From positions 62,001 to 126,000 of the forward strand of contig NZ_SPEY01000017.1 in assembly GCF_009360615.1 (NCBI RefSeq): a DNA stretch of 64,000 bases. Direction: 5' to 3'. This document shows, piece by piece, positions 11,633 to 62,647 of this stretch. The notes under the pieces are model-generated. The model was not told the origin of the DNA. It did not search any database and saw nothing but the letters and a program-made list of their open reading frames with translations. Every line of letters begins with the position of its first letter. The first letter of the stretch is position 1. This DNA is from Comamonas sp. GTDB taxonomy: Bacteria > Pseudomonadota > Gammaproteobacteria > Burkholderiales > Burkholderiaceae_C. Position numbers and translations under genes: made by a program.

Positions 11633-11661
11633 AGGGACCTCTGGTATCTGGTGCAGTGTAA

Positions 11662-12039
11662 TTAATTTATATAAACAAACGATTGAGGTGCTTTGAGTCC
11701 TTCTTTAAGTTCATTTAGACTAATAGGTGTTTTATATGCTTTTACGTTAGCAATTTTTATAGCATGAGCTAACGATCTACCCTTGAAATACTCATTGAAA
11801 AAATCTTCACTAATCCCTGAATAATGCTTTGTTTCCTCCCATACCTGATTTGGGGAATTTGAAATTATTTGATCAATTTCGAATTCCCCAATAATTTTTC
11901 CAACGGGAGCAGTTGCATATATTAATACTTTCTTTATATCAGTTTTCTTGAAAATTGTTTTACGATATTCAAAATGTTTTTTACCGTTTAAAATTTTATC
12001 TGCGTAATCTGGTTTTATTGAAATTAAAATTTTCATCAT
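11662..12039 (-). CDS. ASCH-domain (PUA-like) protein
   Basis: 125 residues, one whole ASCH domain: it begins MKILISIKPDYADKIL-NGKK-x-x-EYRK, continues VLIYATAPVGKIIGEFEI and ends PQSFVYI. ASCH domains have a PUA-like fold and bind RNA or nucleotides; some are RNases or amidohydrolases. Small stand-alone members are frequent in phages and plasmids. It overlaps no neighbour and sits 6 bp after the next gene upstream, so is co-transcribed with it. Confidence 0.8.
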   Translation of the reverse strand: MMKILISIKPDYADKILNGKKHFEYRKTIFKKTDIKKVLIYATAPVGKIIGEFEIDQIISNSPNQVWEETKHYSGISEDFFNEYFKGRSLAHAIKIANVKAYKTPISLNELKEGLKAPQSFVYIN

Positions 12040-14746: not shown

Positions 14747-15763
14747 TTATCCAAAATATTTAAAATTAAATAATTCTTTATCCAATAAAGAGCTTTCAAA
14801 AGCCTTTAGATCAACATCTGTATCAATATCCAAAGCTTTTATAAATTCTCCATCTTTCCATCCGATTTCACCACATGGAAAGCCCTCCGGATGTGAAAAA
14901 TTATGTTCTGTAATTTTCCAGAAAGGTTCGACTTCTCCATAGTTATATGAACGACCACCTCCTACTCGAAATAATGGTAGTTTACTGATTGTCCAAAATA
15001 AGAAATGCAAGGACCCCAAATGGTTTCCTGTTAATTTCATGGTATGTTGTGCTACAGAGTCCGCAGCGATAACATCAAGCCCATAGTTAACACGGCGAAC
15101 CGATTCTTTAGAACCTGTCTTTTTTCCCTTAATATCTGCAACCCTATCTTGCAACTGCTGTATTTGTTTGTTTAGTTCAGTTTTTTGCTCAAAATTTGGC
15201 GCATTTCTTTTTTCATGTTGAATTATTTTAATTTTGGCTTTTAATTCTTGTATTTGTGGTGCTGTCTCTGCATCTTGTTCCATAATATCTAAAAGCAACT
15301 GTTTATCACCCTCAGTTATATAATGGTCAAAATCATCAAACGAATCAGCTATATGTCCTCTACTAGAATTTGCAGATTTAACTAAAGATGAAATTGGTGC
15401 AATTGCACTGCCAACCCCTAATGCCCCAGAAATACCCCATCGACCAAATAAATCCATCATTGGATTTATCTTGCGAACATCAATATTGAGACCTATCGTT
15501 GTTGCACGTTCATTATTTATTAAGTTTCCAGTATCAATACCCTTCGCAAGAAGATAATGTTCATGAATTGAAAATAGTTCACCTCTTTGCTTCATGACTT
15601 CTAAAAGTGAACGATAACTGGCAAACCTTAACCAACCTCTTAGTGTCTGAGAGGGCATCAGGGGGTTTCCATTAGTATCAACAGGAAAGTGAATTGTATT
15701 TGGCAGGTTCACTGTGAAAGGCTGAATTAACTTAATACCTCCTTTAAATTGATAATACTTCAT
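14747..15763 (-). CDS. csf2: Type IV CRISPR Cas7 backbone protein (Csf2)
   Basis: 338 residues from the ATG with AGAGG upstream; the longer frame to 15877 would overlap csf3 by 95 bp and is not used. Csf2 multimerises along the crRNA as the backbone of the type IV complex. Family marks: FPVDTNGNPLMPSQTLRGWLR (about 26-46), NPMMDLFGRWG...LGVGSA (100-119) and a Gly-rich PLFRVGGGRSYNYGEV (263-278). Residues about 168-214 form an unusual Glu/Lys/Gln-rich coiled-coil insertion. It follows csf3 by about 20 bp. Confidence 0.8.
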   Translation of the reverse strand: MKYYQFKGGIKLIQPFTVNLPNTIHFPVDTNGNPLMPSQTLRGWLRFASYRSLLEVMKQRGELFSIHEHYLLAKGIDTGNLINNERATTIGLNIDVRKINPMMDLFGRWGISGALGVGSAIAPISSLVKSANSSRGHIADSFDDFDHYITEGDKQLLLDIMEQDAETAPQIQELKAKIKIIQHEKRNAPNFEQKTELNKQIQQLQDRVADIKGKKTGSKESVRRVNYGLDVIAADSVAQHTMKLTGNHLGSLHFLFWTISKLPLFRVGGGRSYNYGEVEPFWKITEHNFSHPEGFPCGEIGWKDGEFIKALDIDTDVDLKAFESSLLDKELFNFKYFG

Positions 15764-15782
15764 AGGTTTACCTCTCGTGATC

Positions 15783-16445
15783 CTATATAACAATGACGTT
15801 GTTAATTGGAATGTAACAGTCGGTGGTATCACCACTTTTATAATTCGGTTTATACCGGCAACATTTAATTGGCTCATTCCGCGCCATGTTAAAGATACTT
15901 ATTGGGAGGATTCGATTCAATTTATCATCATAGAACCAACTATAATCTTCCATAGAATCTTCAACTGTGACTTTCGCTATCTCTCCAAATCCTGCATTTG
16001 CTGACCGCCCTATGCCAATTAAGCTATTAAGATAAAATTTAATTTTCTCTGCATCACCATGTGCAAAAAATATGATTTTGTTTACTTTGGTAGCAAGTTT
16101 CTCAGTAAATAACCGTCTAAATGGACCTTCATTTTCCTTGATACTTTTTTTAGGTTTGGTAAATTTCCCTGAAAATTCCGTCCATTGAAAATGTGTCGCT
16201 CTTACCACCTCAGTTGCAATAATTTTTGAATCTCTACCTTTCACGAACAAAGCTTGTGATGCATGATATACCCCACTAGATTTCGAAAAAACTTTATCAA
16301 CTTCTTCTATTGCAATAGGATGTGTATCAGAAAAATTACGAACCGCCCAATAGATAAGTCCATCCAAGTGTATTGGATAGTAGTTACCATGAATGATAGA
16401 AGTGATTATTTCTATCTCAATTCTTAAGGGATGAAATGATGACAT
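15783..16445 (-). CDS. csf3: Type IV CRISPR Cas5-like protein (Csf3)
   Basis: 220 residues, the usual length. Csf3 is expected to cap the 5' end of the crRNA in the type IV effector. Marks seen: an N-terminal PLRIEIEI strand followed by HLDGLIYWA (about 27-35), the Gly-rich IGIGRSANAGFGEI loop (about 144-157) and a closing LPISIF motif. It begins a short unit with csf2 and a Sel1 gene: the hns gene upstream ends in its own terminator (16591-16620), so csf3 must have its own promoter in the AT-rich 16446-16590 gap. Confidence 0.75.
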   Translation of the reverse strand: MSSFHPLRIEIEIITSIIHGNYYPIHLDGLIYWAVRNFSDTHPIAIEEVDKVFSKSSGVYHASQALFVKGRDSKIIATEVVRATHFQWTEFSGKFTKPKKSIKENEGPFRRLFTEKLATKVNKIIFFAHGDAEKIKFYLNSLIGIGRSANAGFGEIAKVTVEDSMEDYSWFYDDKLNRILPISIFNMARNEPIKCCRYKPNYKSGDTTDCYIPINNVIVI

Positions 16446-16590
16446 AGTTCACCACTTGTTTGGCTTGATTAAAATTTAATCTTATTATATTTCAGAATTA
16501 TTATTTTTTAAACATTAATTTAATATTTCACCACACAAATAATAAAGAATAATTATTTAAGCGGTAATCAAAATTAATATACAAACAAAT

Positions 16591-16620
16591 AAAAAAGGAC
16601 AAAAAAATTGTCCTTTTTTT
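16591..16620 (-). terminator. Terminator between hns and csf3
   Basis: AAAAAAGGACAA and TTGTCCTTTTTTT arms around an A-rich loop, T-rich on both strands. It ends the minus-strand hns transcript and separates it from csf3-csf2. Confidence 0.85.
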
Positions 16621-16633
16621 AAATCAGCCTAAT

Positions 16634-16969
16634 CTATACGGCGAAACTTTCAAGTGTAGCTCCGGCTTCAATCGCAGCAACCAACCATTTAGGTTTTAAT
16701 CCACGTCCAGTCCATGACTGTTCATGATTTTCTGGATTGCGATATTTCACTTCCGCCTTCTTAACTGCTTTTTTATTTGGTTTAGTTGGTTCCGCAAATA
16801 ATTCCTCTAAAGAGATACCCAAAGATGCAGCCAATTCGCGAACATGAATACGAGCATCATTAACTTCTTTTTCTTTACGAGCTTCAATTGCAGAAGCAAT
16901 GTCTTTTTGTAGTGCTTCAAGGTCTGAGATTGAGGAATCCGCAATAACTTGATCTAAGCTTTCTTTCAT
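16634..16969 (-). CDS. H-NS family protein inside the CRISPR locus
   Basis: 111 residues. Helical N-terminus with a Glu/Ala-rich oligomerisation region, and the H-NS DNA-binding signature KYRNPEN-x-x-x-SWTGRGLKPKW (about 76-96) with a closing LESF. It is the shorter of two H-NS proteins in the window. Lying between the two halves of the csf gene set, it could silence the AT-rich locus or be a passenger. It has its own terminator. Confidence 0.9.
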   Translation of the reverse strand: MKESLDQVIADSSISDLEALQKDIASAIEARKEKEVNDARIHVRELAASLGISLEELFAEPTKPNKKAVKKAEVKYRNPENHEQSWTGRGLKPKWLVAAIEAGATLESFAV

Positions 16970-17061
16970 TTACATCTAACTCATTATGTATTGTAGGTAA
17001 ATTTGATTATATGCAATTTAAAACTTAAATAAAGTTTTTAAATACAACATTATCAAAATAT

Positions 17062-17547
17062 TTACATATTTATTGATTTATAGACTAATTGCAAGACTAA
17101 GATTAGCCCAAAGCAAACTACTCCAAAATTAAACATCTGATTAAACCGTTTTACCTTATCCACCAACATTGCTGAAAGATTAGCTTTTTGGGTCTCTAAT
17201 TGAGATAAGGTTTTTTGAGTAATTGAATGAGCAAATAAAGTCAGCCCTCCAAAGCACAACAGTAACAGTACAAAGACATCACTATATGGCAAGCTTGGAC
17301 CACGAAATATCTGTTCTGAATAATTCTTATCCACAAAAATCGCCAATATTAGTATTACATTAAATGTAATAGCTACCGATCCCACGGCGATTTGCTTCGC
17401 TATAAAATTAGATCGCCACAACTGTAGTTGGAGTCTCGTTATTGAACTGGCATAAACTGGACTATTGAAATCGAATGACTTAAAAGATACAACGATCCAG
17501 ACAACCAAAAAAACAGAAACAAAACTTAATAAAAGTAAATTCAACAT
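17062..17547 (-). CDS. Four-helix membrane protein in the csf locus
   Basis: 161 residues from the inner ATG (AAAGAG upstream); an alternative TTG start lies 21 bp earlier. Four hydrophobic segments: near the N-terminus, in the middle (two) and at the C-terminus, with a Gln/Lys-rich helical stretch between the third and fourth. No family recognised. It lies about 65 bp downstream of dinG/csf4 on the same strand. Membrane proteins are not standard type IV components, so this is either cargo or an accessory worth testing. Confidence 0.6.
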   Translation of the reverse strand: MLNLLLLSFVSVFLVVWIVVSFKSFDFNSPVYASSITRLQLQLWRSNFIAKQIAVGSVAITFNVILILAIFVDKNYSEQIFRGPSLPYSDVFVLLLLCFGGLTLFAHSITQKTLSQLETQKANLSAMLVDKVKRFNQMFNFGVVCFGLILVLQLVYKSINM

Positions 17548-17612
17548 ATTTGACTCTTTTTCTTTCAATATTTGGTGAATAATTTCGATGGAAATTAAAG
17601 TAAAAATTAAAT

Positions 17613-19691
17613 CTACAATACAACGCTAATTTCGCTATCCATATAAGCTTCCACCTCACCCTCACTAGAAAATATGCCTGCTTTTGCGTAATTGCTTAAA
17701 AATCTAACAGGAATTGCATTTATGAGAGGTTTAGATTTCGGAGAATTAAAATAAGGCATTCGTGGATCAGCAAACCAAATAATTATTCGATCTTCCGGTG
17801 CCCGCAAGCCTCGACCCAAACCTTGCTTAAGCACACGGACGCAATAATTATTTTGTTTAAGCCATAGGATATTATCGATAACATGTGGCGGAATATTTTT
17901 TGAAGTCATGTATTCTCGTGCTACATATTCTTCCAACTCATTCTTAGGTGGATTAGGAATTCTTGTTATCACAATATTCTGCAAAAACTGACTATTGTCA
18001 GCAGAACGAATATTTAAACCATCCCATCCAGAAGGTGTGATTAATACATCAGAATGCCCTGCAATAAACTCCGGTAAGCATTCCATCAATCGCTTACCGG
18101 CTTCTTGAGTTATACATTCAACACCTAAGCCTTCCATGTGTTCTTTGATTAATCTGGTTTCCTCAAATGAGTAAGTCAGTACCAAGGTGGGACCTGTCTT
18201 AACAGCCTCCTTAATCATAGATGCAGTGTATTTCAACCAATAACTATTGAATCTGTTACATCTATTATCGCGGTCATAACTTGTTGGTACCGAAACATTC
18301 TTAGATGGTAGAATGAATCGCATATCTCCATACATAGACGGCGTTAAACGCAATAGGCATGTTACCGCCTCATGGGAAAAGCCAAGATCGCCTGCAACAG
18401 CTATTGCCTTATCATCTACCCGATTATCAAACAGGGTTGCAGACGTTATTATCATTCGTGTTGTTAAACGTTTTAAAGTATGTGCAAAAAGTCGAGAAGC
18501 AATTGGATTTACAACTGCTAGACTTGGATTTCGCATATTATCGCTGTATAGGATCGCTCTATATAAATAATCATTAGAGGACCGCCATTGCGCTAAAGTT
18601 ATTAATGCTTCGTCTAGTTGCTCTAAGCATTCAACCTGAAAATGATCCAAACTATTCAACTTTTGAAATTCACGAAAATCTTTCTCTAAATGACGTAGAT
18701 TTGCTTCAATTTGAGCAACATAATCAATCTGATCTGTTAACCACTGCTTATGACCACCAGAACTAATGTAAAAGTCCTGATATGAGCCATTTGCTTTATC
18801 ATATTGAATAACATTTGCCTGCCAATGTTTAAGAAACTGGCGTGTCTCTTTTACATACGGCGCATGTATATCAAAATCTTTTGCGCTACTAAGCAAGAAA
18901 TTTATCCTTGCAAATGGCAAGATTTTATTTGATCTTTCTGACATGAGACGATCTAAATGATGTGCTTCATCGGTGATTACTGCATAAGCCGATTCAGTAA
19001 AATCTGTAACATTGTCATGCCCAATTAATGTTGCATGATTGGTTAATAGTAGTCTTGCGGAGGCTGCTTGATTGATATGTTTTATATAAGCATCATTACT
19101 GATCCGCCCATCATACAACAAACATATATCTCTACTATGGATATGGTCTGGGAACATAAAATATTCCTCCAACCAATCTAGCCACAAACCTGATCCACTG
19201 TTACAGCTCTTATGTGCATAAGATAAAAATTCTTCTAACTGTTGACAGTAATCAACATCATGCGAATACTTCGCTAAGAGCTGCTCCACAAGATGCTGAG
19301 TTCGTTCCATACAATAAAAAGCTTGCCGACCCATTCTGTAAGCGCACGGCACCGGCTCCAAGCCTAATAGCTCAATTACACGAATTGCGAACGGCATATC
19401 CTTATGCATGATTTGTTTCTGGAGCAACCGAGTAAATGTTGAAATAATAATTTGATTTGCTTCTACGTGGGTACTAAGAAAAATCAAACATGGTATCAAG
19501 TAACCTAAGCTTTTTCCTACGCCGGTTTCTGCTTCAATAATTGCAAGTGACTCATCTGGGTACATCAATGACTCACCGACTGCTTGGGCATATTGATATT
19601 GCTCTTTGACATATCGTCCACCAAGCGATACCACAACACCATGCGGATTAAATGCTTCATGTATGTAATCTGATAATTTTTTATTAGTCAT
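17613..19691 (-). CDS. csf4: DinG-family helicase of type IV-A CRISPR (Csf4)
   Basis: 692 residues, superfamily 2 helicase. Walker A AETGVGKS (54-61), DEAH box (241-244), TSATL in the second half, and motif VI QGLGRGLR near the C-terminus. In type IV-A systems this ATP-dependent 5'-3' DNA helicase is recruited by the crRNA complex and is needed for interference. Cys at 116, 127, 149, 163 and 190 do not form an obvious standard four-Cys iron-sulphur pattern, so the cluster may be vestigial. It overlaps the upstream cas6-like gene by 8 bp. Confidence 0.85.
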   Translation of the reverse strand: MTNKKLSDYIHEAFNPHGVVVSLGGRYVKEQYQYAQAVGESLMYPDESLAIIEAETGVGKSLGYLIPCLIFLSTHVEANQIIISTFTRLLQKQIMHKDMPFAIRVIELLGLEPVPCAYRMGRQAFYCMERTQHLVEQLLAKYSHDVDYCQQLEEFLSYAHKSCNSGSGLWLDWLEEYFMFPDHIHSRDICLLYDGRISNDAYIKHINQAASARLLLTNHATLIGHDNVTDFTESAYAVITDEAHHLDRLMSERSNKILPFARINFLLSSAKDFDIHAPYVKETRQFLKHWQANVIQYDKANGSYQDFYISSGGHKQWLTDQIDYVAQIEANLRHLEKDFREFQKLNSLDHFQVECLEQLDEALITLAQWRSSNDYLYRAILYSDNMRNPSLAVVNPIASRLFAHTLKRLTTRMIITSATLFDNRVDDKAIAVAGDLGFSHEAVTCLLRLTPSMYGDMRFILPSKNVSVPTSYDRDNRCNRFNSYWLKYTASMIKEAVKTGPTLVLTYSFEETRLIKEHMEGLGVECITQEAGKRLMECLPEFIAGHSDVLITPSGWDGLNIRSADNSQFLQNIVITRIPNPPKNELEEYVAREYMTSKNIPPHVIDNILWLKQNNYCVRVLKQGLGRGLRAPEDRIIIWFADPRMPYFNSPKSKPLINAIPVRFLSNYAKAGIFSSEGEVEAYMDSEISVVL

Positions 19692-20295
19692 GAAGAACCC
19701 TCACGCAACCCAATCCATATACTCTTTTATTCCCGACACCAAAATTCCATGCCGAATCAAATTTTTCGTGATGAAGTATTAAACCCTCGAAAATCACATT
19801 CATCGTGGGTTCTACAATAAATAAATTGTCACGTTTATGATAAATCGGCACATCTATTCCCTCATGAATCTCAAAATTTGTACTAGATGGATCGAAACCC
19901 AATTCATCCATTACCTTGTGAACACGTACCTTTTTTTCTGCTTCATTCATTAGACGAATAGAGTTTTTGTACCTTGGGCTTGTTTGTGCCTCATATTTCA
20001 AATTCGGTGTTTTTATTCTTTTCTTTGTAGATAATTGCACTACCACTCTTATAGGCTTATCCAGATTAATGGCAAATTCATTATGTTCAACGATTGGGTG
20101 TTGAATAGGTACAGAACTCTTGCCGATCAACCCATAATCATCTCCATATTGAAAGACAACATAAGTGATTGCCTTATAATTCTCCGAAAAAAGATCACTC
20201 AATCCATTACGGCGTAACCAATGTACAAGCGTATAATGAGCATCCTTACCCTTTGGAACGCTTATTTCGAATAACCATTCATTAAGCTGCTTCAT
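19684..20295 (-). CDS. csf5: Cas6-like crRNA endonuclease (Csf5-like)
   Basis: 203 residues. RAMP-type protein: two half-domains and a C-terminal Gly-rich loop, NFGVGNKRVYGLGCVRV (about 182-199), like that of Cas6e/Csf5 enzymes that cut precursor CRISPR RNA at repeat hairpins. It overlaps csf1 by 14 bp and dinG by 8 bp, so all three are translated from one mRNA. I cannot tell Csf5 from a Cas6e-type protein by eye. Confidence 0.65.
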   Translation of the reverse strand: MKQLNEWLFEISVPKGKDAHYTLVHWLRRNGLSDLFSENYKAITYVVFQYGDDYGLIGKSSVPIQHPIVEHNEFAINLDKPIRVVVQLSTKKRIKTPNLKYEAQTSPRYKNSIRLMNEAEKKVRVHKVMDELGFDPSSTNFEIHEGIDVPIYHKRDNLFIVEPTMNVIFEGLILHHEKFDSAWNFGVGNKRVYGLGCVRVLHD

Positions 20296-21013
20296 TAACC
20301 ACCACCTTAAGTAAATTCAATATAAAAAGCCGAGAATGAATATCCATTGCTAACAGATCATTAAATTTGATCATTAGAATTTGGTTTTTTTCTACGAACA
20401 TCCTTACATCATTATCCAAATTCGATAATTCTCCTTTGGCAATTTTTTGCATCAAGCTAATCGCTTTATCAACAATTTTTTTATCGTTGAGTTTTACAAG
20501 CTTTGTAAGCTTTCGCCATATATCTAAATTTATGCAGTACCCCCCTTTTGAAGTCGAAATATAAACAGAACGCTCATCTGATACCATTAAATTTTGAGCA
20601 TATTCTGCATACCGTATTGTGGGTCTTATAATAATTCTTTTTCTAGGATTGTTTAGTAAATTTATTATATATTCATTTACACCATATACCACAAATTTAA
20701 CGAATTTTGTATCGGTTACTTGCCTCGCATAACGTTCACTTACAACCAAGGTCATACAGTCATTTTCTTCTATTACTAAAAGCGAATTTAAGAAGCTTAT
20801 AGGGCTATGTGCGCGAACATGAGTTAACATTCCAAACAGCTTTGCATTTGGTCTTTGAAAGAAGTCACATACCATACAAGTATTTGTATTATTATCATTT
20901 TTGCAAACTTCAACATTATTCTCGCCACATACATCGCAGCATGAAGTTACCTTGAATTTTTCTTCAATAATTAGCGGAAAAATGCATTTTTTTATTAAGC
21001 CGTTAGCAGTCAT
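20282..21013 (-). CDS. csf1: Type IV CRISPR large-subunit-like protein (Csf1)
   Basis: 243 residues. Csf1 is the signature subunit of type IV complexes, with a Cas8-like role. A four-Cys zinc-finger-like site is visible: C26-x2-C29 and C46-x2-C49. The rest has alternating beta and helical parts without further motifs. First gene of the csf1-cas6-dinG operon; an AT-rich region of about 65-120 bp separates it from the divergent gene at about 21.1 kb and should hold promoters for both. Confidence 0.75.
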   Translation of the reverse strand: MTANGLIKKCIFPLIIEEKFKVTSCCDVCGENNVEVCKNDNNTNTCMVCDFFQRPNAKLFGMLTHVRAHSPISFLNSLLVIEENDCMTLVVSERYARQVTDTKFVKFVVYGVNEYIINLLNNPRKRIIIRPTIRYAEYAQNLMVSDERSVYISTSKGGYCINLDIWRKLTKLVKLNDKKIVDKAISLMQKIAKGELSNLDNDVRMFVEKNQILMIKFNDLLAMDIHSRLFILNLLKVVVNEAA

Positions 21014-25905: not shown

Positions 25906-26973
25906 TTATGCAACCGATACGAAAGTATCTTCAATCTGCTGATTTGCTTCTGGTAAAGGAATACCTATATTCTTAAAAATCAAATTAGAAGATAGAATAA
26001 TATTCTGCCTAGCTTTAGAAATCCTACCGGATATTACACATCGTCCCTGCCACTGCGGATCAGTTCTGGACCAATTGATATGTTGTAATCGTTCAACATA
26101 CTGCATCCAGTCGGTAGGTCGGTTTTTTATTAAATAACATCCCACTTCTGCTATTGCTAGCCAAATAACACTATGCGCATGTACAAAAGAATCTCTAAGC
26201 TCCACTGGCTCTATATGCAGTTTACCCAGATTAGCCCATTGTTGTATGTTGATACTTACTTCCTGCCAGAAGGTATGAATGATTTCTGGATTGTCTGAGA
26301 TTTTTTCCTCTTTGAGCATCGTTTTAGTCACTTGGTAGATTCCACTAAATGTGAAAAACATCTTGGACTTGGATGGTAAATTTGTTCTTTCGTAATCCAC
26401 ATATTCTTTAAAAAGTGGTACGGAATCTATCACCTCTCGTGTTACTTTATTTAGTCTATCTCTATGGTTGAAAAGCAATTTAATGGATTGTGCCGGTTTA
26501 GTTGCATTAATATTAATATCAGCAAATACTTGTTGAGCAGCTTCAATACTACCGTTGCTATAAAGCATTACCGCTATATATTCATCACCAAGGTATTTTG
26601 AAATTTTTACTGCTTCCTCAATAGCTGCACGTCTATGCTGACCATCAAAAAGACGTACATCGGCATCAAGGGATATTTTTAAACGCCCTAGATTGACAGT
26701 GCCATCAAACCGTTCAAAATTTACCTCACCGGCACTTATATACGCAACAAGAGGAGGTAGAATATAGGAATCTGGATTATCCACCATATATTTCACGATT
26801 TGTGACACTCGAGCTTTATTAAGTATTCTTTGACTTCTCTGCTCAACTGGAAGCTGTGTATTTTCTTCCCTTAGAAACTTTGATAAAACTTTCAAAGGAA
26901 CCTGTATTAGATAGTTTCCTTTTCTACCCTGAATGCCTGAAAGTGCTGCAAATGAAAAATAGTTCTCGCTCAT
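25906..26973 (-). CDS. DndB-like DGQHR-domain protein
   Basis: 355 residues from the ATG with AAGGA upstream; the longer frame to 27048 would overlap the gene before it. The chain contains the hallmark FDGQHRR (about 115-121) and later HAHSVIW, as in DndB and related DGQHR-domain proteins. DndB acts as a regulator or ATPase in DNA phosphorothioation systems. No dndC, dndD or dndE is next to it, so it is an orphan here. Immediately downstream of the small gene at 27014-27169. Confidence 0.75.
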   Translation of the reverse strand: MSENYFSFAALSGIQGRKGNYLIQVPLKVLSKFLREENTQLPVEQRSQRILNKARVSQIVKYMVDNPDSYILPPLVAYISAGEVNFERFDGTVNLGRLKISLDADVRLFDGQHRRAAIEEAVKISKYLGDEYIAVMLYSNGSIEAAQQVFADININATKPAQSIKLLFNHRDRLNKVTREVIDSVPLFKEYVDYERTNLPSKSKMFFTFSGIYQVTKTMLKEEKISDNPEIIHTFWQEVSINIQQWANLGKLHIEPVELRDSFVHAHSVIWLAIAEVGCYLIKNRPTDWMQYVERLQHINWSRTDPQWQGRCVISGRISKARQNIILSSNLIFKNIGIPLPEANQQIEDTFVSVA

Positions 26974-27013
26974 AATAATTCCTTCAATTTCATAAATTTT
27001 TGAATGCTTTGTA

Positions 27014-27169
27014 TCAATCTTCAATCCAAAACTTAAATTTAGGAACATTAGCTTTAACTTTCACAACACTATTTGGACCCATAAAAATAATTTGTTTTTC
27101 GTGTTCTACAAGTTGACGATCACTAAAACGGTTTTCATTAGGTACAAAGTTAAGAGGATTTTTTGACAT
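27014..27169 (-). CDS. Small basic protein (51 residues)
   Basis: 51 residues from the inner ATG, which has GGAG 7-8 nt upstream; the longer frame adds an implausible N-terminus that runs through the promoter motif. Chain is Asn/Lys-rich with no motif. First gene of a unit with the DndB-like gene. The plasmid motif AAGTAT...GCGGTATATG lies about 35 nt upstream of this start, which supports the start choice. Confidence 0.55.
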   Translation of the reverse strand: MSKNPLNFVPNENRFSDRQLVEHEKQIIFMGPNSVVKVKANVPKFKFWIED

Positions 27170-30795: not shown

Positions 30796-30824
30796 TTGTC
30801 TAAAAATTAATATTAGACTAAAAT
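30796..30824 (+). promoter_or_regulatory. Promoter of cassette 1
   Basis: TTGTCT (30796-30801), 17-bp spacer, TAAAAT (30819-30824). Transcription should begin near 30831, at TGAAGAATAC, a sequence that also follows the promoters of the other two cassettes. Confidence 0.7.
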
Positions 30825-30830
30825 TAATTT

Positions 30831-30950
30831 TGAAGAATACTCATATTAAGTTGTTTTTCATCAGTTTCTTTCCTTACAAAATTTTTTGTATGGATAGCTG
30901 ATGATTGCAAATGCATTCTTCCGTTATCCGTACGCCAACGGAGTCTTAAA
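30831..30950 (+). ncRNA. Structured 5' leader, cassette 1
   Basis: First stem: CATCAG (30859) with CTGATG (30898), and after a 3-base bulge CTTTCC (30868) with GGATAG (30892). Second hairpin: TCCGTT (30920) with AACGGA (30937) around the loop ATCCGTACGCC. This hairpin contains the GGAG ribosome-binding site (30940-30943), 7 nt before the ATG. GGATA of the first stem could instead pair with TATCC in the loop of the second, which gives two exclusive folds, as in a riboswitch or thermometer. Confidence 0.7.
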
Positions 30951-31307
30951 ATGTCTAATTCAGCTCAAACTACATCTATCAATTTCACTAAGATTAAAAA
31001 CACTTTAGCTCTTAATGAATTTGATTTACCGATACTTGGGGAACAAGGTTTGAATGCTTTAATGCATACTGATCTAAACCTTAAGCTAGAAGATGTTTTC
31101 TTCTGCTATATAGCTCCTGAACAAGCTAAACCATTGAAAGACTATATCAATGGTTTTTCACGACCAGAAGAAAGAGAGTTTTTAAATGATTACGTCAACT
31201 GGCGCACAAATGCACCTAGAGATTGTTTTTCTTACTCAACAGTAAGAATCACTGCTGCACTACATCATTTGGAAAAAGTTGATATGTACTTAACATATCG
31301 TTATTAA
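30951..31307 (+). CDS. Cassette 1 protein of unknown function
   Basis: 118 residues, soluble. The last 50 residues (R-x-E-E-R-E-F-L-N-D-Y-V-N-W-R-T ... LEKVDMYLTY) align with the end of the cassette 3 protein (YNLLVDWVKFRT ... LKLAESYLTY), so the two are paralogues in that part. No known family. The gene has its own promoter, structured leader and terminator. Confidence 0.65.
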   Translation: MSNSAQTTSINFTKIKNTLALNEFDLPILGEQGLNALMHTDLNLKLEDVFFCYIAPEQAKPLKDYINGFSRPEEREFLNDYVNWRTNAPRDCFSYSTVRITAALHHLEKVDMYLTYRY

Positions 31308-31345
31308 ACAATGCCTTATCCGCATTATTAATATTTAATAAAATT

Positions 31346-31378
31346 AGCCACTTAGAATTTTTCTATTTGGCTTTTTTT
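31346..31378 (+). terminator. Terminator of cassette 1
   Basis: AGCCA-CT-TAGAA and TTCTA-TT-TGGCT arms with a 2x2 internal loop and a run of T. Same structure as the terminators of cassettes 2 and 3. Confidence 0.75.
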
Positions 31379-31395
31379 ACACTTAAAACAAACAT

Positions 31396-31424
31396 TTGCC
31401 TAATATTTAAACTTCTATTAATAT
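31396..31424 (+). promoter_or_regulatory. Promoter of cassette 2
   Basis: TTGCCT (31396-31401), 17-bp spacer, TAATAT (31419-31424), followed by the shared TGAAGAATAC at the expected start of the RNA. Confidence 0.7.
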
Positions 31425-31430
31425 AAACAT

Positions 31431-31548
31431 TGAAGAATACCTTTCTATTCTCATCAGATTCTATCCTTACATTTTTTAATTTAAAGTTCGGATAGCTGAT
31501 GATCGCTCAAGCGTTTCTTCCGTTATCCGTACGCCAACGGAGTTCAAT
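31431..31548 (+). ncRNA. Structured 5' leader, cassette 2
   Basis: Same fold as in cassette 1: CATCAG (31452) with CTGATG (31496), CTATCC (31461) with GGATAG (31490), then TCCGTT (31519) with AACGGA (31536) around the identical loop ATCCGTACGCC. The buried GGAG (31539-31542) lies 6 nt before the ATG. Here CTATCC pairs perfectly with GGATAG, where cassette 1 has one mismatch. GAATA and TATTC at the 5' end add a small extra hairpin. Confidence 0.7.
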
Positions 31549-31743
31549 ATGCTTTTTTTCTTACTTTCTGAATCAGACATCGCAAAATTTATTTGCCGTG
31601 ACTATGACAATATTCCTGTCTCTAAGAGAAATCAGTTTACATCTCTTGAAGAAGCAGAACTAGCTAAGAAAAGGGATGCCAAGCATCACCTTAAGATTCT
31701 AAAATTATTGCGCAATGGTGGTTATTCTATCATTGACCTATAA
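31549..31743 (+). CDS. Cassette 2 protein of unknown function
   Basis: 64 residues, basic, probably helical, unlike the other two cassette proteins except for size class and position. The start is fixed by the GGAG in the leader hairpin. No family recognised. Own promoter, leader and terminator. Confidence 0.55.
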   Translation: MLFFLLSESDIAKFICRDYDNIPVSKRNQFTSLEEAELAKKRDAKHHLKILKLLRNGGYSIIDL

Positions 31744-31785
31744 TTTTGATACAACGACTAAACATCGCTGTATAACTACCATAAA

Positions 31786-31823
31786 AGCCACTTAGAATTC
31801 TTCTATTTGGCTTTTTCTTTTTT
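31786..31823 (+). terminator. Terminator of cassette 2
   Basis: AGCCA-CT-TAGAA and TTCTA-TT-TGGCT with a 3-base loop and T-rich tail; stem identical to that of cassette 1. Confidence 0.75.
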
Positions 31824-31847
31824 CAAACAGCCTGATGTTTGAAATAT

Positions 31848-31876
31848 TTGCCTAATATTAAAAGTTGAATTAATAT
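31848..31876 (+). promoter_or_regulatory. Promoter of cassette 3
   Basis: TTGCCT (31848-31853), 17-bp spacer, TAATAT (31871-31876), followed by ATGAAGAAAT at the expected RNA start. Confidence 0.7.
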
Positions 31877-31881
31877 TACAA

Positions 31882-32006
31882 ATGAAGAAATCAATTTTTT
31901 TGTGATTCTTATCAGATTCTATCCTTACTATAATTTTTTATGTATGGATAGCTGATGATCGCTCAATGCTTTCTTCCGTTATCCGTACGCCAACGGAGTT
32001 CTTCTC
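31882..32006 (+). ncRNA. Structured 5' leader, cassette 3
   Basis: Same fold: ATCAG (31911) with CTGAT (31952), CTATCC (31919) with GGATAG (31946), TCCGTT (31975) with AACGGA (31992) around the identical loop ATCCGTACGCC. The C of CATCAG is replaced by T, which changes a C-G pair to U-G and keeps the helix. GGAG (31995-31998) lies 8 nt before the ATG. A longer 5' hairpin (AAGAAATCA with TGATTCTT) precedes it. Confidence 0.7.
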
Positions 32007-32558
32007 ATGCAAAAGTTAAACGCTACCAAAACTGTCAATACGCAATCAATCATTAATCTAATTAATGGCGGTATTCACTTCCCTAAAATGAAGAATGTTT
32101 TTGTTGTTAATGAGCATAGTTCTTGCCCAGATCACAACAATAACCTACAAGTTTATAAGGACTTAAATGCTGTATATTTTGCAATGCAGTTCAGAGGAAA
32201 AATGAAAACCTGTGCAGCATGTACAGTTACTCAGAATCCTTCTGTTGATAAGCGTGCGCCAATCAATACGATTCGCCTTTCTCGAGACGGAAACGAAGTA
32301 TATACGCAAAGTCTATTTGCTTATAATAAGGAGTTTGATGTCAAAGTTCGTCAAACTGCTGCACTTCCTAAGTTTCAAGATAGTGGATTAACTCAAGCAG
32401 AATATAATCTTCTTGTTGATTGGGTTAAATTCAGAACTGATCGCGAAACCTCCAATCTTGTTCACAAACGTGGATTAGGTTTGGTTAAGATTAATTCTGT
32501 TTTGAAATTAGCTGAATCTTATCTAACATACGAAATAAGTGCTAAAAACACTTATTAA
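32007..32558 (+). CDS. Cassette 3 protein of unknown function
   Basis: 183 residues, soluble. Two Cys pairs (CPDHNN and CAAC, about 34-70) could bind zinc. The C-terminal 55 residues are paralogous to the end of the cassette 1 protein. No known family. The start is fixed by the leader GGAG. Confidence 0.65.
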   Translation: MQKLNATKTVNTQSIINLINGGIHFPKMKNVFVVNEHSSCPDHNNNLQVYKDLNAVYFAMQFRGKMKTCAACTVTQNPSVDKRAPINTIRLSRDGNEVYTQSLFAYNKEFDVKVRQTAALPKFQDSGLTQAEYNLLVDWVKFRTDRETSNLVHKRGLGLVKINSVLKLAESYLTYEISAKNTY

Positions 32559-32569
32559 TTAATAATAAA

Positions 32570-32602
32570 AGCCTTTTAGAATTTTCTAATTGGCTTTTTT
32601 TT
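32570..32602 (+). terminator. Terminator of cassette 3
   Basis: AGCC-TT-TTAGAA and TTCTAA-TT-GGCT, then eight T. The internal loop is kept although bases differ from the other two copies. Confidence 0.75.
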
Positions 32603-32770
32603 CACCGGCAAGTTTGTGAGGGCGATAAAAAACATTATGCTTAATTACAATCAAGTATCAGAATTTAAAAATTATTTTTTATGTGAAATACCATACATAA
32701 AATTGTAAGTTACAAATTTATGTATGGTGATTATATTTTATTTTTGAATTTAAAAATCCCAGTCTTACAC

Positions 32771-35878: not shown

Positions 35879-36499
35879 TTAAATATTAGCAACTGCACAT
35901 AATCTAGTTGTGCGTGAAAATCCATAACCATCAGGTTTACTGTACTGTGCAATTTTTAAAAAATCCATTGAGGTAACTTTATAATAATATCGTATCAATT
36001 TTTTACTTCCATGGATACTTGAACTAGGCATCAAATAAATGTAGTTACAGTCGGGCAATGACTCTAGTAGAGACCTCTTTACCTCGTATGATTTCAATTG
36101 TTTTTTCTTAGTAGGAATTCTTACACGAATATATGCTGAATAGCTATTTGTGCTTACTGGAACCTCGTTAATTTCGCTTAAGCTGTATATATCTTTAAAA
36201 AATCTAACATCTTGAAGAACTGAACGGAGATGTTCCAGAGAAGTTTTCTTTTTTGTATAGACTCTTATTTTAGATTGAACTGAAACTGAGTTAGAGGGAT
36301 CACAATCAAAATTTGTCTCAATAATAGCAATTGCATAACCACTTATGCTTTTCTTTACTGAGATGTGATGCAGTGTATTTATGGCGACAGAAATTGCTCT
36401 CCTAAAGGCATCTTGAATCTTAAGTTGAGTATTTAATTCATTTACTTTAAGCTTTGATTGCAAAGGAACAAGCTCAAAATAATATCCATAAAGTGCCAT
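35879..36499 (-). CDS. cas6f: Csy4/Cas6f-like crRNA endonuclease (orphan)
   Basis: 206 residues (Csy4 is about 187). By eye it aligns with Csy4 along its length: YYFELVP start; TLHH (42-45) at the place of catalytic His29; IRV...LEHLRSVL; EVPVSTNSYSAYIRVR (112-127) like the Csy4 VPHPTPYRQVSR stretch; YIYLMPSSSIHGSKKLI (153-169) like the TLRSQSTGQHFRLF stretch with the catalytic Ser; and DGYGFS (190-195) like CYGLS. Cas6f cuts type I-F repeat hairpins. No other type I-F gene and no array is nearby. Its start abuts the stop of the preceding gene. Confidence 0.7.
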   Translation of the reverse strand: MALYGYYFELVPLQSKLKVNELNTQLKIQDAFRRAISVAINTLHHISVKKSISGYAIAIIETNFDCDPSNSVSVQSKIRVYTKKKTSLEHLRSVLQDVRFFKDIYSLSEINEVPVSTNSYSAYIRVRIPTKKKQLKSYEVKRSLLESLPDCNYIYLMPSSSIHGSKKLIRYYYKVTSMDFLKIAQYSKPDGYGFSRTTRLCAVANI

Positions 36500-61657: not shown

Positions 61658-62647
61658 TTACTTTGATAATATTCTTCTCACCCAATCAGAAACCAGATTT
61701 ACATTTGATTTAGCTGCATCCGTAGCTAAATTGACCATTTCTGATCTATTCTGCTTTACCATAGAATTTACTTGATTGGAAATTGGAGGAATGTTTTCTG
61801 AACCTTGCTTTGGTAATTGAAAAAAGATTGCACTTGAATTGTTCGATGCTACTCGAAATGATTTCATGTTAACGGCTTCATGAGAATTTACAGGCAGAAT
61901 AAAGCGATAATTAAAAATCTCTGATTGCGAGGCTTTTGGAAAGAACTTTATACCACTGTAAAGCTGTAATTGGTTAATAGACACGTAGTCATATCTGCCA
62001 GATTCATCATTGATTGCAACATACGCTCCGGCAACATTCAGTTTTGGGAACAACACAACTTTATATATATGGCTTGGGACCAAGACGTTGTTCCCAATTT
62101 TTCTTAATTTATTTCCAAGAAATAATGGACCAGTAATAACATAGACAGGTTGATTGTTCCTTGTAACAAATGCTCGTAAAGCTTCTTCAATCAAACGCCA
62201 TTCTTCTTGATTGTTATGAGGACTTTGAGGAATCATATTAACAAGTGAAAAACTTTCATATTGATCTTGAACAGTGAACCGATCGGCACTCGGAGACAAA
62301 TGCCCACGATCAAATGATGAACCTCTGTAGTCTGTTAATAAACTTCTATGTTGGAATGGTATGCGTTCTTCCTCATGGAAAGTATTATTCCTTTTTATTT
62401 GATACGCCGCTTTTAAAGATTCCGGTGTTAATAGTGATGCAGACCAAAGACCTGTTTTAGATATACCAGAATAACTGACTGCAAAGCCTGAAAAACATAA
62501 TTCATAAATGTCCTTAGATAAAAGGGCATTTTCAATAATAGGTGGAACTTTTGCATAGAAAATTTTATTGCAACGTTCCAAAGTACTTGCATTAGAGCTG
62601 GCACATGCAAAAAAAAGTAAAAATGATAAGCTCTTAATTATTTTCAC
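61658..62647 (-). CDS. Secreted DNA/RNA non-specific endonuclease
   Basis: 329 residues, GTG start overlapping the preceding gene by 14 bp. Signal peptide (cut near SNA). The NUC superfamily motif DRGHLSPSADRF (113-124, His116 catalytic) and NMIPQSPHNNQEEW with the metal-binding Asn are present. Such periplasmic nucleases degrade incoming or extracellular DNA. On a conjugative plasmid it may limit DNA uptake or act as a nutrient or exclusion enzyme. Confidence 0.85.
   Translation of the reverse strand: MKIIKSLSFLLFFACASSNASTLERCNKIFYAKVPPIIENALLSKDIYELCFSGFAVSYSGISKTGLWSASLLTPESLKAAYQIKRNNTFHEEERIPFQHRSLLTDYRGSSFDRGHLSPSADRFTVQDQYESFSLVNMIPQSPHNNQEEWRLIEEALRAFVTRNNQPVYVITGPLFLGNKLRKIGNNVLVPSHIYKVVLFPKLNVAGAYVAINDESGRYDYVSINQLQLYSGIKFFPKASQSEIFNYRFILPVNSHEAVNMKSFRVASNNSSAIFFQLPKQGSENIPPISNQVNSMVKQNRSEMVNLATDAAKSNVNLVSDWVRRILSK

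Follow-up and report, generated by a model that had tools for sequence, protein, structure and literature searches.

A two-fold leader RNA candidate repeated before ardC and other genes of Acinetobacter-type plasmids

Three adjacent gene units in a 64,000-nucleotide (nt) stretch of DNA (the window; positions 62,001 to 126,000 of contig NZ_SPEY01000017.1 of the Comamonas sp. assembly GCF_009360615.1) share a structured leader that recurs across large plasmids, and the interpretation that we favour, as moderately probable, is a switch leader RNA in control of a plasmid regulon. The window lies within contig C122 (242,768 bases), a plasmid of ~243 kb on which BLAST and pattern searches of the assembly located eight leader copies, all on the + strand. 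Eight more copies are found on pARA1 of Acinetobacter radioresistens (240 kb), and nine on the Acinetobacter sp. TGL-Y2 plasmid NZ_CP015111.1 (299 kb), where a diverged form (CCGTCATCCGAGCGCAATCGGAG) has different letters and the same architecture. All 25 copies lie on the + strand of their own record, directly upstream of an open reading frame (ORF; ATG start, at least 40 amino acids (aa)), with a gap of 6–10 nt between the GGAG of the leader and the ATG. The original prediction, made from the window alone, proposed a cassette family on Acinetobacter-type plasmids; the 25 copies on three large plasmids uphold it, and their two diverged sequence families show the leader to be more than three recent duplications.

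The units are laid out alike on the + strand, each with a promoter-like site matching TTGYCT-N17-TAAWAT, a leader of three hairpins (hp1, hp2 and hp3), an ORF and a terminator-like hairpin, identified by eye, with GCC/GGC and a 2x2 internal loop above it. Leader limits are the cmsearch match boundaries of covariance model R1, whose training set includes the window copies. Unit 1 comprises the promoter TTGTCT-N17-TAAAAT (30796..30824; sequence and promoter scan), the leader (30842..30945; 109.6 bits), an ORF of 118 aa (30951..31307) and the terminator (31347..31378). Unit 2 has the promoter TTGCCT-N17-TAATAT (31396..31424; read from the sequence, the automatic scan having chosen a different site here), the leader (31435..31544; 100.3 bits), an ORF of 64 aa (31549..31743) and the terminator (31786..31819). 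Unit 3 has the promoter TTGCCT-N17-TAATAT (31848..31876; sequence and promoter scan), the leader (31893..32000; 113.2 bits), an ORF of 183 aa (32007..32558) and the terminator (32568..32603). Direct reading of the sequence confirms the shared promoter, structured leader and terminator that had been described, and the three ORFs are indeed different ones. The hp3 element is a 23-mer (CCGTTATCCGTACGCCAACGGAG) that contains the GGAG, is identical across the three units (30921..30943, 31520..31542 and 31976..31998) and stands 6–8 nt before the ATG; allowing up to 3 mismatches, it occurs 9 times in the assembly compared with 0 for a reversed control, so its recurrence is not due to chance. The 3′ arm of hp1 is the switch strand, GUAUGGAUAGCUGAUG in unit 1 (30888..30903), the first 11 nt of which also pair with 30923–30933; the switch strand of unit 3 (31942..31957) has its alternative partner at 31978–31988.

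Judged by its sequence, the leader is conserved as an RNA would be. In an alignment of the 16 C122 and pARA1 copies (A4), the 24 pairs of one fold (fold A) are paired in 87.6% of cells, compared with at most 42.9% in six slid controls. Five of the 24 pairs, two in hp1 and three in hp2, changed on both sides, and 11 cells carry two-sided changes compared with 4.9 after shuffling, a count reached in 0 of 500 shuffles. The hp1 3′ arm, GUAYGGAUARC, is also complementary over 11 base pairs (bp) to GUUAUCCGUAC inside hp3, and this alternative helix is paired in 97.7% of cells; the upper 5′ arm of hp1, CUAUCC-x-UAC, mimics the hp3 sequence except at x, which is mismatched and corresponds to a G in hp3. 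The RNAalifold consensus of the nine TGL-Y2 copies contains the alternative stem as AUGAYGG:CCGUCAU, an hp2 with three compensated pairs and a short hp3, CCGA[GCGCAA]UCGG. When the two families are aligned by hand, position 5 of the 23-mer and its partner in the alternative helix go from U-A (U-G in 1 of 16 copies) to C-G, and hp3 positions 11 and 18 go from U-A to A-U. At the level of the letters, then, two mutually exclusive conserved helices surround the Shine–Dalgarno sequence. The original claim that changes between copies preserve pairs is borne out for hp1 and hp2. Its last hairpin, with a 6-bp stem and an 11-base loop, stands as one option, but many predicted folds choose a 5-bp form, UCCGU[ACGCCA]ACGGA, which is the version kept in the diverged TGL-Y2 family; the two exclusive pairings of the switch strand do appear in predicted folds, with an alternative helix of 11 bp rather than the 5 bp first described.

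Model R1, built from the 16 C122 and pARA1 copies alone and run against 29 loci, recovered its 16 copies and all 9 TGL-Y2 copies outside the training set (expectation value (E) 1.5e-7 to 4.7e-4). It also matched six small-plasmid hp3 loci (E 2e-5 to 0.02) and one extra place on pARA1 (L035:24289-24394, E 2.7e-4); the last four rows (E 0.06 and weaker) are chance-like. With the TGL-Y2 copies recovered and covarying pairs present, the stems are supported beyond the identity expected from recent duplication. Neither of the two forms occurred at up to 4 mismatches among the other's plasmid pieces, the searched pieces covering C122 in part, and a joint-consensus pattern search of C122 returned just the eight known copies. 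Small plasmids of seven named species (10 records) retain a 22-nt hp3 element, which also occurs without the rest of the leader on the small contig C123 of the assembly. Inspection of five of these records plus C123 showed the element (CGTTATCCGTACGCCAACGGAG) to be identical in all six aligned sequences, with diverged flanks, and hp3 alone to precede short ORFs.

Beyond these plasmids, matches were few. Rfam release 15 (4227 families) gave no match at the gathering score in the window, with its three copies, and none at E up to 0.1 in the piece holding the other five C122 copies (L012), so as far as scanned the leader is absent from Rfam. The exact hairpin was present in no stretch of the viral contigs and in one genome contig, a high-GC contig of a groundwater metagenome-assembled genome that we take as chance; in the phage collection, two Campylobacter phage records only gave chance matches (23 and 21 bp, E 0.9 and 0.3). 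No match was found in 52 other genomes of the assembly's genus (pattern, at most 1 mismatch) or in 398 other genomes of its family (model R1, stricter filters); these zeros say little about Acinetobacter, since the assembly's genus is probably not Acinetobacter and the closest records may lie outside the set. A PLSDB search with the TGL-Y2 leader returned that plasmid alone. Across the searches made, the leader was found solely on Acinetobacter-type plasmids, and a literature search by title and start of abstract, subscription papers and preprints aside, found nothing on this leader or on the giant RNA described below.

Some of the genes behind the leaders recur with it. An all-against-all BLASTP of the 25 leader ORFs yielded six orthologous groups in which the leader is retained on different plasmids. 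Window ORF 2 (64 aa) groups with p1 on pARA1 (81% identity) and t1 on TGL-Y2 (48%), and window ORF 3 (183 aa) with p2 on pARA1 (84%) and t2 on TGL-Y2 (43%). The ArdC proteins and a group of 293–329-aa proteins also have the leader on all three plasmids, and two further groups are common to C122 and pARA1 only. The remaining leader ORFs are unrelated, except t6 and t9 on TGL-Y2, and window ORF 1 has no homologue among the other 24 by BLASTP. No Pfam or NCBIfam family was assigned to window ORFs 1–3, ORF 3 giving one sub-threshold Pfam match (E 0.26). All three leader-bearing ArdC proteins carry the ArdcN and metallopeptidase domains, and a common upstream element before ardC and other genes, as in an establishment regulon, is what we find across the 25 ORFs. 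Since the leader precedes an ArdC anti-restriction gene on each of the three plasmids, one common signal probably governs the cassette set as an establishment or accessory regulon. Just 3′ of ardC on pARA1 (L035:24289-24440; stem TCCGG/CCGGA; also matched by model R1) and C122 (L012, about 11660-11870), an hp3-like variant, read by eye, lies before a very short ORF (10 or 5 codons) and, on C122, before a terminator-like hairpin as well. It may represent a small RNA akin to the leader.

We propose that the window units belong to a plasmid-wide set of one-gene cassettes, each with a sigma70-type promoter, a leader of ~110 nt, an ORF and a terminator, in which the leader would act in cis and set the translation of its ORF through the choice between two folds. 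In fold A, hp1 would be closed, hp3 separate and the GGA of GGAG paired, keeping translation low. In fold B, the 3′ arm of hp1 would leave its partner to pair with the 5′ side and loop of hp3, which in the C122/pARA1 form would remove hp3 and place the small hp2 at the tip of the new stem. Fold A would be the likely default because hp1 is transcribed first, and some signal, which might come from a trans-acting factor and not from a metabolite, would favour fold B or hold fold A. Predicted energies are nearly equal (fold B minus fold A: mean +0.6, standard deviation 3.2 kcal/mol; ViennaRNA, 25 copies), with a difference of no more than 3 kcal/mol in 18 of 25 copies, suggesting that the leaders are near balance. 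In single-sequence folding, fold B removes hp3 in 16/16 C122/pARA1 copies and 8/9 TGL-Y2 copies, and its GGAG bases pair with other partners. Since hp3 is lost when C122/pARA1 copies adopt fold B, we infer that fold B is ‘on’ and fold A ‘off’. Both folds would occur in cells, and the set would serve establishment.

Several observations weigh against this scheme. Five pairs with two-sided changes were also reached in 13 of 500 shuffles, and further pair types in 96 of 500. Among the 16 copies, hp2 is paired in only 70.3% of cells and the five pairs of hp3 are invariant, so support for hp3 there is sequence conservation, not covariation; within the same family, 5 of the 11 alternative pairs are invariant and none has a two-sided change. 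The GGAG bases are paired at 3–4 of 4 positions in fold A and still at 2–4 of 4 in fold B (25 copies), so on and off states are not derivable from energies. The TGL-Y2 consensus retains hp3 beside the alternative stem, such that fold B need not free the ribosome-binding site there, and the small-plasmid hp3 has no exact 8–9-nt complement except its own opposite strand. Finally, the three large plasmids are syntenic relatives, so it says little if two features occur together on them.

The strongest rival, which we regard as rather unlikely, is a constitutive expression aid, in which the hairpins protect the 5′ ends of short mRNAs, hp3 and the GGAG it holds serve as an ordinary ribosome-binding module, and the cassettes were spread by duplication and kept alike by gene conversion. 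One form unites the nine TGL-Y2 copies and another the remaining 16, as gene conversion predicts; hp3 stands alone before short ORFs in the small plasmids, both predicted folds leave the GGAG partly paired and no trigger was found. However, protection has no need of an alternative helix, and this helix is paired at 97.7% of cells and was re-created with new letters in TGL-Y2. A CsrA/RsmA site (motif ANGGA) was set aside: the C122/pARA1 form offers two ANGGA motifs, but the TGL-Y2 form keeps GGA alone in hp3. A conserved leader peptide from ATGATCGC was rejected, as the frame varies between copies (MIANAFFRYPYANG versus MIAQAFLPLSVRQR) and hp2 varies by single bases.

A second rival, unlikely in our assessment, gives the trans role to a solitary Cas6f/Csy4-like endoribonuclease that would bind or cut hp3 at the 3′ base of its stem, beside the GGAG, and so switch the whole regulon. 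The candidate in the window (35879..36499, − strand, 206 aa) was recognized by homology to a pARA1 protein (54% identity) that scores 28.1 bits against Pfam Cas_Csy4, above the cut-off of 25. PADLOC Cas6f matches the pARA1 protein (E 5.5e-7) and the TGL-Y2 protein (E 4.7e-10; 30.5% identical to that of pARA1), and the PADLOC type IV Cas6 model matches the window protein (E 4e-4). The motifs LH, SSS, IRYYY and DGYGFS, which presumably fit the Csy4 catalytic residues, are invariant in the three-way alignment, and the protein occurs on all three leader plasmids in the same neighbourhood, 3.3 kb from the window units, a co-occurrence for which synteny alone could account. The window protein itself has no Cas family in Pfam or NCBIfam and no sequence match in PDB. 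Although hp3 is found in small plasmids of seven species, tblastn finds the protein in just 2 of 72,556 plasmid records, presence being counted per plasmid record. The clustered regularly interspaced short palindromic repeat (CRISPR) arrays on C122 and TGL-Y2 offer another possible substrate. Moreover, hp3 does not resemble the plasmids' own CRISPR repeats, as a Cas6f substrate would: the C122 repeat, GTTCTTAATCGTGTAGACGATTTGTAGG, and the TGL-Y2 repeat are both unlike hp3, and the latter is unlike the TGL-Y2 leader.

The CRISPR-related loci themselves are as follows. On C122, outside the window, the 28-nt repeat lies at 196.2 kb (L049:10242) and a variant at 171.6 kb (L048:5609); TGL-Y2 has 52 matches to its repeat core, in many short arrays scattered over both strands, and no CRISPR array was recognized on pARA1. 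The window also encodes type IV-A-like cas genes (14747–21013, − strand), with matches to csf2/Cas7 (E 5.5e-25), csf3/Cas5 (4.4e-34), DinG (2.5e-116), Cas6 (9.7e-7) and, weakly, Csf1/Cas8-like (0.01). Given type IV-like cas genes on C122 and CRISPR arrays on C122 and TGL-Y2, the Cas6f/Csy4-like protein may simply serve CRISPR. A DndB-family protein is encoded between these genes and the leader units (25906–27048, − strand; E 2e-97).

Still less likely is that the element acts as DNA, its hairpins forming a single-stranded DNA (ssDNA) promoter like Frpo/ssi that would serve during conjugative entry. All copies lie on one strand, ArdC is within the leader set and F-type transfer genes are annotated on pARA1 and TGL-Y2, in keeping with the Frpo logic set out in the available part of PMC11541004. 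However, the conserved hairpins lie downstream of an ordinary promoter of the double-stranded type and covary within the presumed transcript. Folding the promoter region as DNA gave a mean z of −2.3 on one strand and −2.4 on the other, which is uninformative given just 20 simple shuffles each and the neighbouring terminators inside. An RNA thermometer that melts the ribosome-binding site, one of the options first raised, is not supported and seems highly improbable: although the GGAG is partly paired in the predicted folds, the site is predicted to open little with heat, its mean accessibility across the 25 copies being 0.17 at 15 °C and 0.25 at 48 °C.

A second RNA-like element accompanies the leader or its hp3 on these plasmids. 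An unannotated, covarying giant region of about 0.9–1.1 kb, which we treat as a putative transcript, is found on small plasmids (L013, about 3200-2250, − strand; L010, 3140-4130; and L011, L052, L053 and L054) and on all three megaplasmids, at 221.7–222.9 kb on C122 (L050:15740-16920), 143.9–145.1 kb on pARA1 (L034:43950-45110) and 210.7–211.9 kb on TGL-Y2 (L041:20710-21890). RNAalifold on six small-plasmid sequences, hp3 and flanks included, gave 259 pairs with 68 compensatory; on six sequences of both plasmid kinds, 76 of 163 pairs were compensated, compared with 35–44 in five column-shuffled controls. No Rfam match was found at the scanned places, the pARA1 copy lying outside the scan. Divergent from the giant region is a protein gene (L050:14123-15502, L034:42306-43721 and L041:19084-20391, all on the − strand; L013:3659-4495 on the + strand), a possible partner of the giant RNA. 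Its proteins are weakly related across plasmid classes (21–29% identity over stretches up to 110 aa; E from 3e-9 for pARA1 to 0.001–0.05 for TGL-Y2, in a database of about ten proteins), and the two examined have no Pfam or NCBIfam family. Pairing in trans between leader and giant RNA found no support, the best duplexes not being consistently above those of shuffled leaders (six plasmids, 10 shuffles each). More tentatively, it is possible that a plasmid entry or accessory regulon, ArdC included, is run by one bistable leader answering a shared trans signal, such as the plasmid Cas6-like RNase, an RNA or a host factor, and that small plasmids with the 22-nt element beside a giant-RNA relative listen to or hijack the same signal.

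The plasmid pieces have 33–36% GC, compared with 61–69% in pieces of six other contigs of the assembly, and the sample of the assembly's family spans 141 genera, more than the family of Acinetobacter would hold. C122 and C123 may therefore be mis-binned or co-isolated plasmids; what they resemble is Acinetobacter plasmids. A 16S ribosomal RNA gene was not found in the assembly by a search that was positive in just 9 of 14 control genomes.

Translational riboswitches and similar RNA leaders expose or hide the ribosome-binding site, and the leader is like them in having two exclusive folds around the Shine–Dalgarno sequence; it differs in that its eight C122 copies match nothing in Rfam, no ligand is known and the genes have no common pathway. 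In pLS20-family plasmids of Bacillus, the conserved sequences EGeRS1 and EGeRS2 precede ardC and four other operons; EGeRS1 is GC-rich, about 420–750 bp long and without a detected constitutive promoter, and EGeRS2 works through a protein repressor on DNA (PMC8708921, in the part available). The leader shares with EGeRS a single kept upstream element before several transcription units of conjugative plasmids, ardC included, and downstream genes that vary among plasmids while the element stays, as far as that part of PMC8708921 describes them. It is unlike EGeRS, as so described, in holding its own promoter and a ~110-nt two-fold leader at the ribosome-binding site, in preceding single genes and in belonging to another phylum; its length and its TTGYCT-N17-TAAWAT promoter-like sites set it apart from EGeRS1 in particular. 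Frpo/ssi elements are DNA hairpins that form ssDNA promoters in leading-region anti-defence islands (PMC11541004, available part), and like them the leaders are non-coding elements before anti-defence genes in one orientation; they differ in that their covarying hairpins come after a linear promoter, within the presumed RNA. The worked-out control of plasmid establishment genes, as covered in the same part of PMC8708921, is by DNA repressors or ssDNA promoters. If the switch reading is true, an establishment-type gene set under one repeated switch RNA would follow a principle unlike either, and the leader would mark plasmid genes of unknown function that perhaps work together with the anti-restriction protein. 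With 25 natural copies in two diverged sequence families, such a switch is directly testable.

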